Part shown: positions 3,075-19,909 of the stretch, in pieces | Position numbering within the stretch: the stretch's first letter is position 1 | Layout of the letters: every line of letters starts with the position of its first letter | IMG/VR virus record: IMGVR_UViG_3300038441_001316 | Span: 1 to 21,791 of that record | DNA from: a virus | Reading direction: 5' to 3' (one strand) | DNA: 21,791 nt | Made by a program: the position numbers and the translations under genes | The notes under the pieces: model-generated | Told to the model about the DNA's origin: nothing | The model's input: only the letters and a program-made list of their open reading frames with translations | Database searches by the model: none

Positions 3075-3329
3075 ATGGGTGACACGGAACGGCCGATCCC
3101 CGAGCGGCTCGGCGATCAGGAAGCTCAGGCGGCGCACCTCGTGCGCACGGGCAACGGCCCGACGGTCGACGGCGAGGCCGAGCTGCTCGCCGAGGTGCAT
3201 GGCCCGGCGGACATGGCCGGGTTCTACTCCGCCCCGGACGGCGCCGACGAGGCGGCCGAGCCCGCCGAGGACGTCGACCAGGACGCGGCCGCCGAGGGCG
3301 ACACCGCGAAGGGGGGCGCGTCCGCATGA
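3075..3329 (+). CDS. Small acidic protein between the two lysins, unknown function
   Basis: 84 aa from the ATG at 3075, with AGAAAGG 8 bases upstream. The longer open frame upstream runs back through lysin 1 and is not used. The protein is strongly acidic, especially the last third (EPAEDVDQDAAAEGDT), with no Cys, membrane segment or recognisable domain. Its stop overlaps the start of lysin 2 (ATGA at 3326-3329), so the two are probably translated together. Placement in the lysis block suggests a structural or lysis accessory role, but no function can be named. Confidence 0.7.
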   Translation: MGDTERPIPERLGDQEAQAAHLVRTGNGPTVDGEAELLAEVHGPADMAGFYSAPDGADEAAEPAEDVDQDAAAEGDTAKGGASA

Positions 3330-4246
3330 GCGTCGACAGCATGATCAAGGCGGTCGAGCGCTGGATCGGTACCGGCGAGCCGAACGCGATACAGGCGTGG
3401 TACCGCGAGCGCAACGGCGCCGCGTACGCCTACAACTTCCCCTGGTGCGACGCCACGATCACCCGCGCCGCCGTCGAGGCGGACGAGTACGAGGCGGTGT
3501 GCTTCGGTACTGACTACGCGTACACCGTGGCGCACGCGGCCCGCTTCAAGGCGGCGGGTCAGTGGCACGTCGGTGCGAAGGGGATCAAGCGTGGCGACAT
3601 CGTGTTCTTCGACTGGTCGGGCACGGACGAGATCGCCCGAATCGATCACGTCGGCATCGTGACCTCAGTCGCTGGCAGCCTCGTGTACACGATCGAGGGC
3701 AACACGGCGAACGTGTGCGCGCGCAGGGTGCGCGGCGAGGCGGAAATCGCGGGGTACGGCCGTCCCAAGTACAAGGCGGCGAGCAGCAGCTCAGGGTCGT
3801 CGACGACGTACACCGTCAAGGCCGGCGACACGCTCAGCGAGATCGCCGCCGCGCACGGGACGACCGTCAAGATCCTCGCCGACCTGAACGGGATCAAGGA
3901 CGTCAACAAGCTCACCGCGGGGAAGACGCTCAAGCTGCCCGCGGGCACGGCCGCGGCCGCGAAGGTCGTGAGCCTGTCCAAGCTGGTCAAGGCGTTCCGG
4001 GCCGACCCGCCCAAGAGCGGTACGCCGGTCTCGTACGCCGCCGTCGAGTTCGTCGAGGACGCCCTCGTGTCCGAGGGACTGCTCGCGAAGCGGTACGCCG
4101 ACGGGCACGCCGGGACGGCGACGCTCAGCGCGTACGCGCTGCTGCAGAAGCGCTACGGGTTCACCGGGGACGACGCCGACGGCATCCCCGGCGCGACGTC
4201 GCTCGGCCGACTCGCGCGGGCGCACGGGCTCACCGTCGTCGCCTGA
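3326..4246 (+). CDS. Lysin 2: CHAP domain, LysM, C-terminal peptidoglycan-binding domain
   Basis: 306 aa, start overlapping the previous stop as ATGA. Residues 1-150 form a CHAP-type amidase/endopeptidase: catalytic Cys candidate C41 in NFPWCDATI, the KRGDIVFFDW strand, H108 in IDHVGIV, and E124/N126 in YTIEGNT. A flexible Ser-rich linker (about 152-160) leads to a LysM domain (about 162-205, YTVKAGDTLSEIAAAHGTT), which binds GlcNAc polymers in peptidoglycan. Residues about 215-306 form a second wall-binding module seen in Streptomyces phage lysins (SLSKLVKAFRADPPKSGTPV to GIPGATSLGRL). This is the most complete endolysin candidate. There is no signal peptide; export is expected through the holin encoded just downstream. 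Confidence 0.87.
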   Translation: MSVDSMIKAVERWIGTGEPNAIQAWYRERNGAAYAYNFPWCDATITRAAVEADEYEAVCFGTDYAYTVAHAARFKAAGQWHVGAKGIKRGDIVFFDWSGTDEIARIDHVGIVTSVAGSLVYTIEGNTANVCARRVRGEAEIAGYGRPKYKAASSSSGSSTTYTVKAGDTLSEIAAAHGTTVKILADLNGIKDVNKLTAGKTLKLPAGTAAAAKVVSLSKLVKAFRADPPKSGTPVSYAAVEFVEDALVSEGLLAKRYADGHAGTATLSAYALLQKRYGFTGDDADGIPGATSLGRLARAHGLTVVA

Positions 4247-18156: not shown

Positions 18157-18767
18157 CGATCATCCCCGGACTGATCGCGCCCGGCGTGCTGTCGCCGGTC
18201 GAGGACGCCGTGACCAACCCGGCCGGACTGCGCGTGATCGGACTCGACCTGTCACTGACGTCGACGGGCGTCGCGCTGCCGGACGGCACGACGTACCGGA
18301 TCAAGACGCGCGACAAGGACGGCGATCGCCGGCTGCTGCACATCCGCGACAGCATCCGCGACGACCTCGCCGACCACCGGCCGCACCTCGCGGTCGTCGA
18401 AGATCTGCCCAAGCACGCCATGTCGGCCGGGTTGACCGCGAAGGTGCACGGCATCGTCCTCGGTGAGCTGCTCGACGCCGGCGTGCCGTACGGGTACATC
18501 GTCCCGGCGACGCTCAAGGCGTACGCCTGCGACAACGGGCGCGCCGACAAGGCTGACATGGCGGCGGCCGCCTACCTCGTGGCAGGCGCTGAGTTCGCGC
18601 ACGACAGCGGCGGCGATCAATGCGACGCATGGTGGCTGCGCGCCGCGGGGCACGACTGGCTCGGGCTGCCGCTGTTCGACATGCCGCAGGCGCAGCGGGA
18701 CCGGCTGAGCAAGGGGAAGTGGCCGAACGCGTACGCGCAGCGGTACGTCATGGGCGCGGCCGCGTGA
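18153..18767 (+). CDS. RuvC-like Holliday-junction resolvase
   Basis: 204 aa from the GTG overlapping the previous stop. It has an RNase-H fold with the four acids in place: D32 in VIGLDLSLTSTGVA, E83 in LAVVEDLPKHA, and D155 with D158 in GGDQCDAWWLRAAGH. PATLKAYACDNGRADKADM is the usual basic segment before the last pair. The first ~25 residues are an extension (VTIIPGLIAPGVLSPVED) and the last ~30 a basic tail. The expected role is resolving branched recombination or replication intermediates before packaging. Adjacent nucleases support a recombination-replication cluster. The GTG of the methyltransferase overlaps its stop. Confidence 0.87.
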   Translation: MTIIPGLIAPGVLSPVEDAVTNPAGLRVIGLDLSLTSTGVALPDGTTYRIKTRDKDGDRRLLHIRDSIRDDLADHRPHLAVVEDLPKHAMSAGLTAKVHGIVLGELLDAGVPYGYIVPATLKAYACDNGRADKADMAAAAYLVAGAEFAHDSGGDQCDAWWLRAAGHDWLGLPLFDMPQAQRDRLSKGKWPNAYAQRYVMGAAA

Positions 18768-19909
18768 AGCGCCGCAGCGCCTCGCCCGGCGCGTCGACGA
18801 TCCCCGGAACGTCTGTCCCGCCGCCCCGGCCGACGCTCGACGACACCATTCGCGCGACCGCCCGCCCGGTTCCCCCGGTTCCGGGGCAGCAGCCGCTCGT
18901 CGTCGACGGGCCGCGCATCGCGTCGTTCTGCACCGGCTACGGCGGGCTGGACATGGCCGTGCAACGCGTGCTCGGCGGCTCCCTGATGTGGGTGTCGGAT
19001 ATCGACCCGAGCGCCTGCAAGATCCTCGCCCACCGATTCCCCGAGGTGCCGAACATCGGCGATCTGACAGTCGCCGACTGGCGGCGACTCGTCACTCTCT
19101 ACGGCCGCCCCGACCTCGTCTCGGGGGGCTATCCGTGCCAGCCGTTCAGCATTGGCGGCCGACAGAAAGGAACCGATGATGACCGGCACATCTGGCCCGA
19201 TATTGCCCGTGCCCTTCGCGTTCTACGACCCCGGATCGCAGTCTTTGAGAACGTCCGCAACCACCTTCGGATCGGATTCGACACCGTACTCGCAGACCTT
19301 GCCGGTATCGGGTTCGATGCGGAATGGGTCGTTGTACGCGCGTGCGACGTTCTCGGCTGTCACCTCCGCGAGCGGCTGTTCATCCTTGCCGTTGCTCAAG
19401 ACGCCGACGGCGAACCTTGGGTCGAATGGCGGCAGTCAGCATCCCGACAGGCGGATAGCGGGTGGGCACGGTCCGACGCTGGCCGACGAGGTCGAGTGGC
19501 TGCTGCCGACGCCGACGACCTCGCAGCACGACGACGGGAAGGATCCGGCGGTCTGGCGGGCGCGCCGGGAACGGCTGCGGGACAAGCACGGGCAGGGCGT
19601 CGGTACGCCTCCGCTGTCGGTACTGGCCCGGACACTTGGGGACGGTTCGCCCCCGCCGTCGCGCGGTGGTCGGAAGCGTTCGGCGTCGAGCCACCCCGGC
19701 CAACTGACGATCGAGGCCGGCTGAACACCGAACTCGAAGAGTGGATGCAGGGGCTGCCCCCTGGCCACGTGACGCAGGTACCCGACCTCGGCCGGCAGGG
19801 GCAGCTCAAGGCACTCGGGAACGGGGTGTTCCCGCGGCAGGCCGAGGCTGCGCTGCACGTGATGTTCGACCGCCTCGACCAGGACGCTATCCGGCGCGCG
19901 GCGGCATGA
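18764..19909 (+). CDS. C5-cytosine DNA methyltransferase (orphan, host of a nested gene)
   Basis: 381 aa from GTG at 18764. Motif I is FCTGYGGLD (55-63), the catalytic Cys is C125 in GGYPCQPFSIGG (motif IV), ENV is at 162-164 (motif VI), motif VIII is HLRERLF (200-206), a motif IX-like region is LNTELEEWMQGLP, and motif X is GNGVFPRQA (352-360). It would methylate C5 of cytosine in a specific site using AdoMet. No restriction gene is near, so protection of phage DNA from host restriction is the likely role. Between motifs VIII and IX, where the target-recognition domain should be, the sequence is low-complexity (RRGRVAAADADDLAARRREG), with about half its codons ending in A or T. A second gene is encoded there in the +1 frame. 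Confidence 0.9.
   Translation: MKRRSASPGASTIPGTSVPPPRPTLDDTIRATARPVPPVPGQQPLVVDGPRIASFCTGYGGLDMAVQRVLGGSLMWVSDIDPSACKILAHRFPEVPNIGDLTVADWRRLVTLYGRPDLVSGGYPCQPFSIGGRQKGTDDDRHIWPDIARALRVLRPRIAVFENVRNHLRIGFDTVLADLAGIGFDAEWVVVRACDVLGCHLRERLFILAVAQDADGEPWVEWRQSASRQADSGWARSDAGRRGRVAAADADDLAARRREGSGGLAGAPGTAAGQARAGRRYASAVGTGPDTWGRFAPAVARWSEAFGVEPPRPTDDRGRLNTELEEWMQGLPPGHVTQVPDLGRQGQLKALGNGVFPRQAEAALHVMFDRLDQDAIRRAAA
19166..19172 (+). promoter_or_regulatory. Internal ribosome binding site for the nested gene
   Basis: AAAGGAA lies within the methyltransferase coding sequence just after motif IV. It is 3 bases before one in-frame ATG (19176) and 6 bases before the second (19179), so the second may be the preferred start. 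Confidence 0.6.
19176..19724 (+). CDS. Gene nested in the methyltransferase, +1 frame (LPTP-motif protein)
   Basis: 182 aa from ATG 19176 (181 from ATG 19179), covering methyltransferase codons about 138-320. FAFYDPGSQSLRTS (14-27), then SQTLPVSGSMRNGSLYA (39-55), SLPLLKTPTA (70-79) and WLLPTPTTS (108-116) match a protein type I recall beside cytosine methyltransferases in actinomycetes and their phages, with LLPTP repeats. In 26 codons from 19473 only 1 ends in A/T in this frame, against 13 in the methyltransferase frame; in the 26 from 19176 it is 6 against 11. Just upstream the methyltransferase alone has 1 in 26. This is the expected signature of two expressed frames. It could supply the missing target-recognition part; M.EcoHK31I is a known methyltransferase with a second subunit encoded in an alternative frame of the first. 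Confidence 0.8.
   Translation: MMTGTSGPILPVPFAFYDPGSQSLRTSATTFGSDSTPYSQTLPVSGSMRNGSLYARATFSAVTSASGCSSLPLLKTPTANLGSNGGSQHPDRRIAGGHGPTLADEVEWLLPTPTTSQHDDGKDPAVWRARRERLRDKHGQGVGTPPLSVLARTLGDGSPPPSRGGRKRSASSHPGQLTIEAG

Follow-up and report, generated by a model that had tools for sequence, protein, structure and literature searches.

The window analysed here, the whole 21,791-nucleotide stretch of the virus record IMGVR_UViG_3300038441_001316, belongs to a temperate actinophage, judging by an integrase gene and by its relatives. On its plus strand, positions 18,764 to 19,909 encode a C5-cytosine DNA methyltransferase, here called alpha, which was identified by PF00145 (2.5e-28, covering residues 52-217), by phrog_363 (9.9e-62) and by HhaI and HaeIII among PDB chains. 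The start codon of alpha is GTG and overlaps the stop codon of an upstream RuvC-like gene; a replication-initiation gene lies on the other side. We found motifs I, IV (PCQ; 19,130-19,150), VI (ENV; 19,247-19,255), VIII (19,364-19,384) and X (with GNG) in alpha, in which motifs I-VIII are followed by a long low-complexity stretch and then by IX and X. This stretch forms a spacer between VIII and IX (plus strand, approximately 19,410-19,640) whose alpha reading is not conserved. In single-chain C5-methyltransferases, the interval between VIII and IX is the position of the target-recognition domain (TRD). Downstream of the nested portion described below, the full-length alpha frame regains a variant of motif IX (RGRLNTELEEWMQGLPP; 19,712-19,762) and motif X (QLKALGNGVFP; 19,802-19,834, placed by the phrog profile match and the motif coordinates), both on the plus strand. 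Elsewhere in the window, the adjacent genes at 2,194-2,988 and 3,326-4,243 each have a match to endolysin families (phrog_9589) and look like a duplicated lysin.

A first-pass annotation had proposed that a complete second gene is overprinted within the methyltransferase gene, and that motifs IV, VI and VIII run across it. Both statements held, including the motif coordinates: the +1 frame of alpha is open from 19,176 to 19,724 on the plus strand and encodes a product of 182 residues, here called beta, which is recognized by phrog_1008 (1.4e-12), by the recoding test described below and by homologues in the +1 frame. The Shine-Dalgarno sequence AAAGGA (19,166-19,171, plus strand) precedes an ATGATG, as the annotation had said in crediting the gene with its own ribosome-binding site and start codon, and lies within the K-G codons of the alpha segment KGTDD. 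The second ATG (19,179) is a likelier start than 19,176 and is the one retained in a 93%-identical relative, L016. The family-type motifs listed in the annotation were all present in the nested product, as SLRTS, SMRNGSLY and LLxTP repeats. Its conserved N-domain of about 65 residues (PFAFYDPGSQSLRTS...SGSMRNGSLY; 19,212-19,394, plus strand) overprints motifs VI-VIII of alpha in a region constrained in both frames. The phrog_1008 profile, labelled 'DNA methyltransferase', matched the first 129 residues of beta, while a later part of the profile matched the C-terminus of alpha, which was the earliest sign that a single protein family is spread over two frames: phrog_1008 corresponds to the beta N-domain, the modules and IX-X, and phrog_363 corresponds to alpha. 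Beta had no match in Pfam, NCBIfam or PDB, and AlphaFold models of beta alone were of low confidence (pLDDT 62 for the window beta and 61 for one beta bearing motif IX).

The length of the open frame was rejected as evidence for the gene, since at 72% GC the probability that a 182-codon frame is open is about 0.5. We therefore employed a recoding test, in which the alpha protein was kept fixed, its codons were redrawn and beta profiles were used to score the +1 product of each redrawn sequence. The +1 product of the window scored 68.4 bits, while recoded sequences scored 18.3±7.1 bits and none of 3000 reached the observed value. With three null models and three profiles, z was between 5 and 8 in all nine combinations (0/3000 in each). 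Across 144 loci scored with profiles from other start-site classes, the four start classes had median z values of 6.3-7.1, and the median was 5.75 for 143 proteobacterial-type loci scored with an actinophage-trained profile. Stop codons in the +1 frame, whose frequent occurrence in homologous methyltransferases would have spoken against the nested gene, were absent from all 144 overlap loci and from the 143 more.

Substitution patterns gave a regional picture of this selection. Among 618 pairs of loci, which lack phylogenetic independence and were consistent in direction throughout, both frames were constrained over alpha motifs VI-VIII (identity 0.62 for beta and 0.67 for alpha), in keeping with the earlier claim that both frames appear functional. 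In the module region, beta was constrained and alpha was not (0.743 vs 0.486), so that alpha lacks the conserved same-chain TRD between VIII and IX; the methyltransferase frame there is unconstrained and also low-complexity, the latter as had been noted from the window alone. Over motif IX, alpha was the better preserved (0.71 vs 0.585 for beta). The proteobacterial set, which has IX in beta, gave 0.66 for beta vs 0.35 for alpha in the module region. The annotation had also argued for codon selection on the nested frame in the recognition region from 26 codons starting at 19,473; its count is exact (A/T-ending codons 1/26 in the nested frame vs 13/26 in the methyltransferase frame), though by itself it would not have proved the point. 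Comparison of the window with L016 supports the claim on other grounds, with 1, 3 and 16 changes at beta codon positions 1, 2 and 3, and identities over the recognition region of 78/81 for beta and 64/81 for alpha. Purifying selection on the nested frame is thus strong by both recoding and substitution patterns, and together these tests demonstrate, at the level of sequence, that the nested +1 gene is real and that dual coding is maintained by selection.

The signals for internal initiation of beta were also found to be selected. Three alternative internal start sites occur across the family, each with a Shine-Dalgarno sequence built from rare codons of conserved alpha residues: K-G (AAAGGA...ATG) at the first, V-V-I-E-N (GGTGGTGATCGAAAATG) at the second and E-N-V-R-G (GTGAGAGGActgctcaGTG) at the third. 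The classes were defined by the start codon and, for class 3, also by part of the Arg-Gly stretch, so that, of the following counts, only codon choices left free by the definition count as evidence. At the class-1 site, Lys was AAA in 21/28 loci against a background of 37/176, and Gly was GGA in 23/37 against 130/1277. Val was GTG in 39/42 class-2 loci, and Arg was AGA or AGG in 31/33 class-3 loci vs 25/421 elsewhere in the same genes (p 3e-30). These codon choices show that the initiation signals of beta are under selection.

Hundreds of phages and prophages of several bacterial phyla have the same arrangement, for the most part without annotation, as judged from homologous loci. A tblastn search with beta returned 114 phage records (Mycobacterium, Gordonia, Streptomyces, Arthrobacter, Propionibacterium, Actinomyces and Synechococcus), and in the first 12 relatives inspected the match always lay in the methyltransferase +1 frame, overlapping VI-VIII. 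The overlap was in the +1 frame in every locus found through beta (159 and 143 non-redundant loci). Loci found by alpha rather than by beta gave the same result, with beta in +1 in 78/78 and 79/79 (157/157), and among these 157 alpha-sampled loci no member of the alpha clade lacked beta. As a control, 14 other Streptomyces C5-methyltransferases and the SPBc2 (SPβ) enzyme that match the alpha profile had no beta, and the single control locus that did have one is a member of the frameshifted Streptomycetaceae subgroup described below. Collection scans and profiles sorted the non-redundant loci into 135 nested, in which alpha continues to IX-X, and 22 split, in which alpha ends after VIII and the +1 ORF has the LPTP region and IX-X; all were in +1, and beta carries IX-X in the 22 split loci. 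Split and proteobacterial relatives have the motif IX variant in the beta frame, and the window has it in the alpha frame. Of the proteobacterial-type loci (143 from IMG/VR and phages), at least 78 encode IX in beta and X in alpha. The overlap was further found in phages of Sulfitobacter, Pseudomonas, Acinetobacter, Bacteroides, Stenotrophomonas and Microcystis, in a Methanomethylovorans plasmid and a Leptospira plasmid, and in an E. coli prophage, where IX is in beta, X is in alpha and alpha alone is annotated. The confinement to actinophages implied by the annotation was not upheld, given these proteobacterial, cyanobacterial and Bacteroides phages, the Leptospira and archaeal plasmids and the E. 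coli prophages.

The N-domain of beta is followed by a chain of modules that begin with LLPTP, often have TL near their end and have a median length of 35 residues. Nearly all betas have 1-9 modules, and we distinguished 23 families with at least 5 members and 114 arrangements in 159 betas. The window beta consists of the N-domain and two modules, namely module 1 of family A (LKTPTANLGSNGGSQHPDRRIAGGHGPTLADEVEW; 19,395-19,499, plus strand) and module 2 of family O (LLPTPTTSQHDDGKDPAVWRARRERLRDKHGQGVGTPPLSVLARTL; 19,500-19,646, plus strand, with an approximate 3′ boundary). Family A occurs in 109/159 betas, a figure inflated by the search patterns used for collecting betas, which favour this family. 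The modules have a common LLPTP...L..AV frame and divergent middles, and they are gained, lost and reordered among betas. The chain sits exactly at the TRD position of single-chain C5-methyltransferases, where the alpha reading of the same DNA is unconstrained. Tandem exchangeable modules are present in beta, with a putative role in DNA recognition. The modules had no detectable relation to PDB chains, and no obvious sequence relation to the TRD region of the SPβ-type (SPBc2) methyltransferase when compared by eye. Very long betas with about 7-9 LPTP modules were observed in L003 (2,357-3,979) and L034 (2,968-4,131); in L034 the alpha frame is open through the module array of about 1.1 kb, so that the modules there must be open in two frames.

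Comparison of the loci established selection in both frames, relaxation of the alpha TRD region, shuffling of the modules and movement of IX, or of IX-X, between frames. From these features, we consider it quite likely that one stretch of DNA encodes a two-polypeptide C5-methyltransferase whose overprinted beta is a target-recognition subunit with exchangeable modules. Alpha would supply the core for SAM binding and catalysis (motifs I-VIII), to which the window phage adds IX-X. Beta would be translated as a separate polypeptide in the +1 frame from the internal ribosome-binding site, and its LPTP modules of about 35 residues, two in the window, would provide the target-recognition part that alpha lacks between VIII and IX. 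The two chains would then join as a heterodimer to form one enzyme. Each module, as a putative TRD, probably reads its own short target, and the window enzyme is probably multispecific; gain or exchange of modules may thus change the set of sites protected from host restriction, which would suit an anti-restriction role. That alpha and beta act together is indicated for about 100 relatives, because beta there contains the enzyme's own IX or IX-X, and movement of IX-X between frames is what would be expected if two chains assemble into one enzyme. The annotation had suggested that the recognition domain was replaced or handed to a second polypeptide, and the latter is still the best reading, backed by these relatives.

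In a Streptomycetaceae subgroup outside the window, alpha itself shifts by +1 at the catalytic motif, within TTC CCN TGY CAA A|GAC (PCQ|DVS), which includes the rare codon AGA. The site was found in 42/298 Streptomycetaceae genomes vs 1 with a reversed control pattern. In 35 of 38 distinct loci, I-IV, V-VIII and beta each occupy a frame of their own. Thirty of the 38 are intact as far as IX-X, and in 28 the downstream frame offers no start codon ahead of PCQ. These loci (L181, L189, L190, L191, L195, L197, L204, L207 and L209, and further L211, L214, L573 and L576-L605) come from Streptomyces, Kitasatospora and Streptacidiphilus genomes. The CAA_AGA site looks like a candidate for programmed +1 frameshifting; if this were true, a single locus would put all three of its frames to use.

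We weighed four other explanations. A nested ORF without a product, whose family resemblance is a by-product of a conserved alpha and high GC, draws support from the ease with which long +1 frames stay open at this composition; however, recoded sequences never attained the family similarity of the window product and hardly ever did so for relatives, beta is conserved where alpha is not in the module region, and other C5-methyltransferases are without such a frame. This explanation is already refuted at the sequence level, and we regard it as extremely improbable. It is also very unlikely that beta is an unrelated overprinted protein, such as a regulator or an anti-restriction protein, that merely shares the DNA. 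In favour of this, Pfam, NCBIfam and PDB do not recognize beta; against it, about 100 loci have a beta that contains motif IX or IX-X, and every sampled locus of the alpha clade had a beta.

The remaining two explanations accept beta as part of the enzyme. Beta might be made by ribosomal frameshifting as an alpha-beta fusion, the nested form requiring a double shift, and the conserved apparent +1 site in alpha of the Streptomycetaceae subgroup indicates that recoding may occur in the family. Against this stand the selected internal Shine-Dalgarno sequences with ATG or GTG at three different positions, the need for two shifts in the nested layout, and an unsystematic look at the frame junctions in which no common slippery site was noticed; we hold a fusion to be unlikely. 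A more serious alternative, which we nevertheless consider improbable, is that beta is an obligate partner whose LPTP modules act as structural repeats or bind DNA non-specifically, in an enzyme of single specificity. The LLPTP...L..AV frame common to all modules fits such repeats, as does the lack of detected homology to known TRDs among PDB chains and, by eye, SPBc2. In contrast, the position of the modules, their divergent middles, their many discrete families, and their gain, loss and reordering as in the TRDs of multispecific phage methyltransferases all favour exchangeable recognition modules.

The annotation had named M.EcoHK31I (YGGCCR) as a precedent, a two-polypeptide C5-methyltransferase whose smaller subunit is coded in an alternative frame inside the larger. 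The likeness extends to the coding, with a second gene in an alternative frame within alpha in the window and all relatives. In M.EcoHK31I, the large subunit has I-VIII and X and the small subunit has IX (PMC3404938). This layout, with IX in beta and X in alpha, is that of the 78 proteobacterial-type loci and the E. coli prophage copy, so the precedent stands for the distribution of motifs by frame in relatives; it fails for the window, where IX and X are both in alpha and beta has only the N-domain and two modules. The predicted TRD of M.EcoHK31I was reportedly placed in the larger subunit (PMC3404938), whereas the present loci point to beta for the TRD-equivalent. That assignment, itself a prediction, counts against a TRD in beta.

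M.AquI (CYCGRG) is a functional split near the variable region, with a small subunit that has the distal TRD and IX-X (PMC3404938). Split-topology relatives such as L002, L003, L005, L007, L009 and L021 resemble it; alpha ends after VIII in the 22 split relatives, unlike the window alpha, which runs to X. M.AquI is not known to have a module array or a long overprint across VI-VIII. Multispecific C5-methyltransferases of the Bacillus phages SPR, phi3T, rho11 and H2 have a series of exchangeable recognition modules of about 40 residues between VIII and IX (cited in PMC8936443); they are single chains in a single frame, unlike the present modules, which lie in a second, overprinted frame. More generally, natural and artificial C5-methyltransferases split between VIII and the TRD function in trans (PMC3404938, PMC5944983). 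The ShiLan element, an out-of-frame HNH endonuclease in a mycobacteriophage methylase gene (PMC11855218), is likewise an alternative-frame gene within a phage DNA methylase gene; it is a homing insertion with patchy occurrence, whereas beta belongs to the methyltransferase locus as an obligate component under selection. For overprinted or nested phage methyltransferase subunits, the open-licence literature yielded only the M.EcoHK31I and M.AquI precedents and the ShiLan HNH element, and nothing on how widespread the class is, on TRD-like arrays, on three start-site solutions or on IX-X hopping; the 'DNA methyltransferase' entries phrog_1008 and phrog_363 are silent on overlapping-frame coding of the pair. 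The layout is thus already known from M.EcoHK31I and the split from M.AquI, while the breadth, the module array and the frame-hopping of IX-X are apparently undescribed, which is not proof of absence.

Taken further, the data lean slightly towards a widespread class of C5-methyltransferases in which an HsdS-like exchangeable specificity subunit is fully overprinted and carries a combinatorial array of TRDs of about 35 residues, giving phages fast-evolving multispecific anti-restriction enzymes; since both chains make up a single enzyme, IX and X would hop from one frame to the other and function would be kept. What had been a curiosity of a single restriction-modification enzyme would then represent a large class that extends over phages of many phyla. 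Such a class predicts the methylation motif from the module set, which can be tested from methylomes, and it offers a natural set of two cooperating proteins on shared DNA in which regional selection can be read frame by frame. The second gene of such loci has often been left unannotated, cut short or labelled hypothetical, for example in the uncalled partner frame of phiBT1 gp9.1, and automated annotation or clone design that considers only alpha can be expected to yield enzymes that are inactive or mis-specified.

Several single loci showed further peculiarities. phiBT1 gp9.1 (L007; 2,206-2,706 and 2,324-3,256) is annotated 'DNA methylase may be inactive', and its missing C-terminal half is an unannotated +1 ORF with modules and IX-X. 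L153, L158, L192, L204, L220 and L290 each have, as single loci, an extra frame change in alpha or in the C-terminal part, which may reflect sequencing errors, decay or further splits. In five Streptomyces phages or prophages (L001, L024, L025, L026 and L028), the N-terminal part of alpha matches in two pieces of one ORF about 225 bases apart, and the gap is an apparent in-frame insertion in alpha before motif V.
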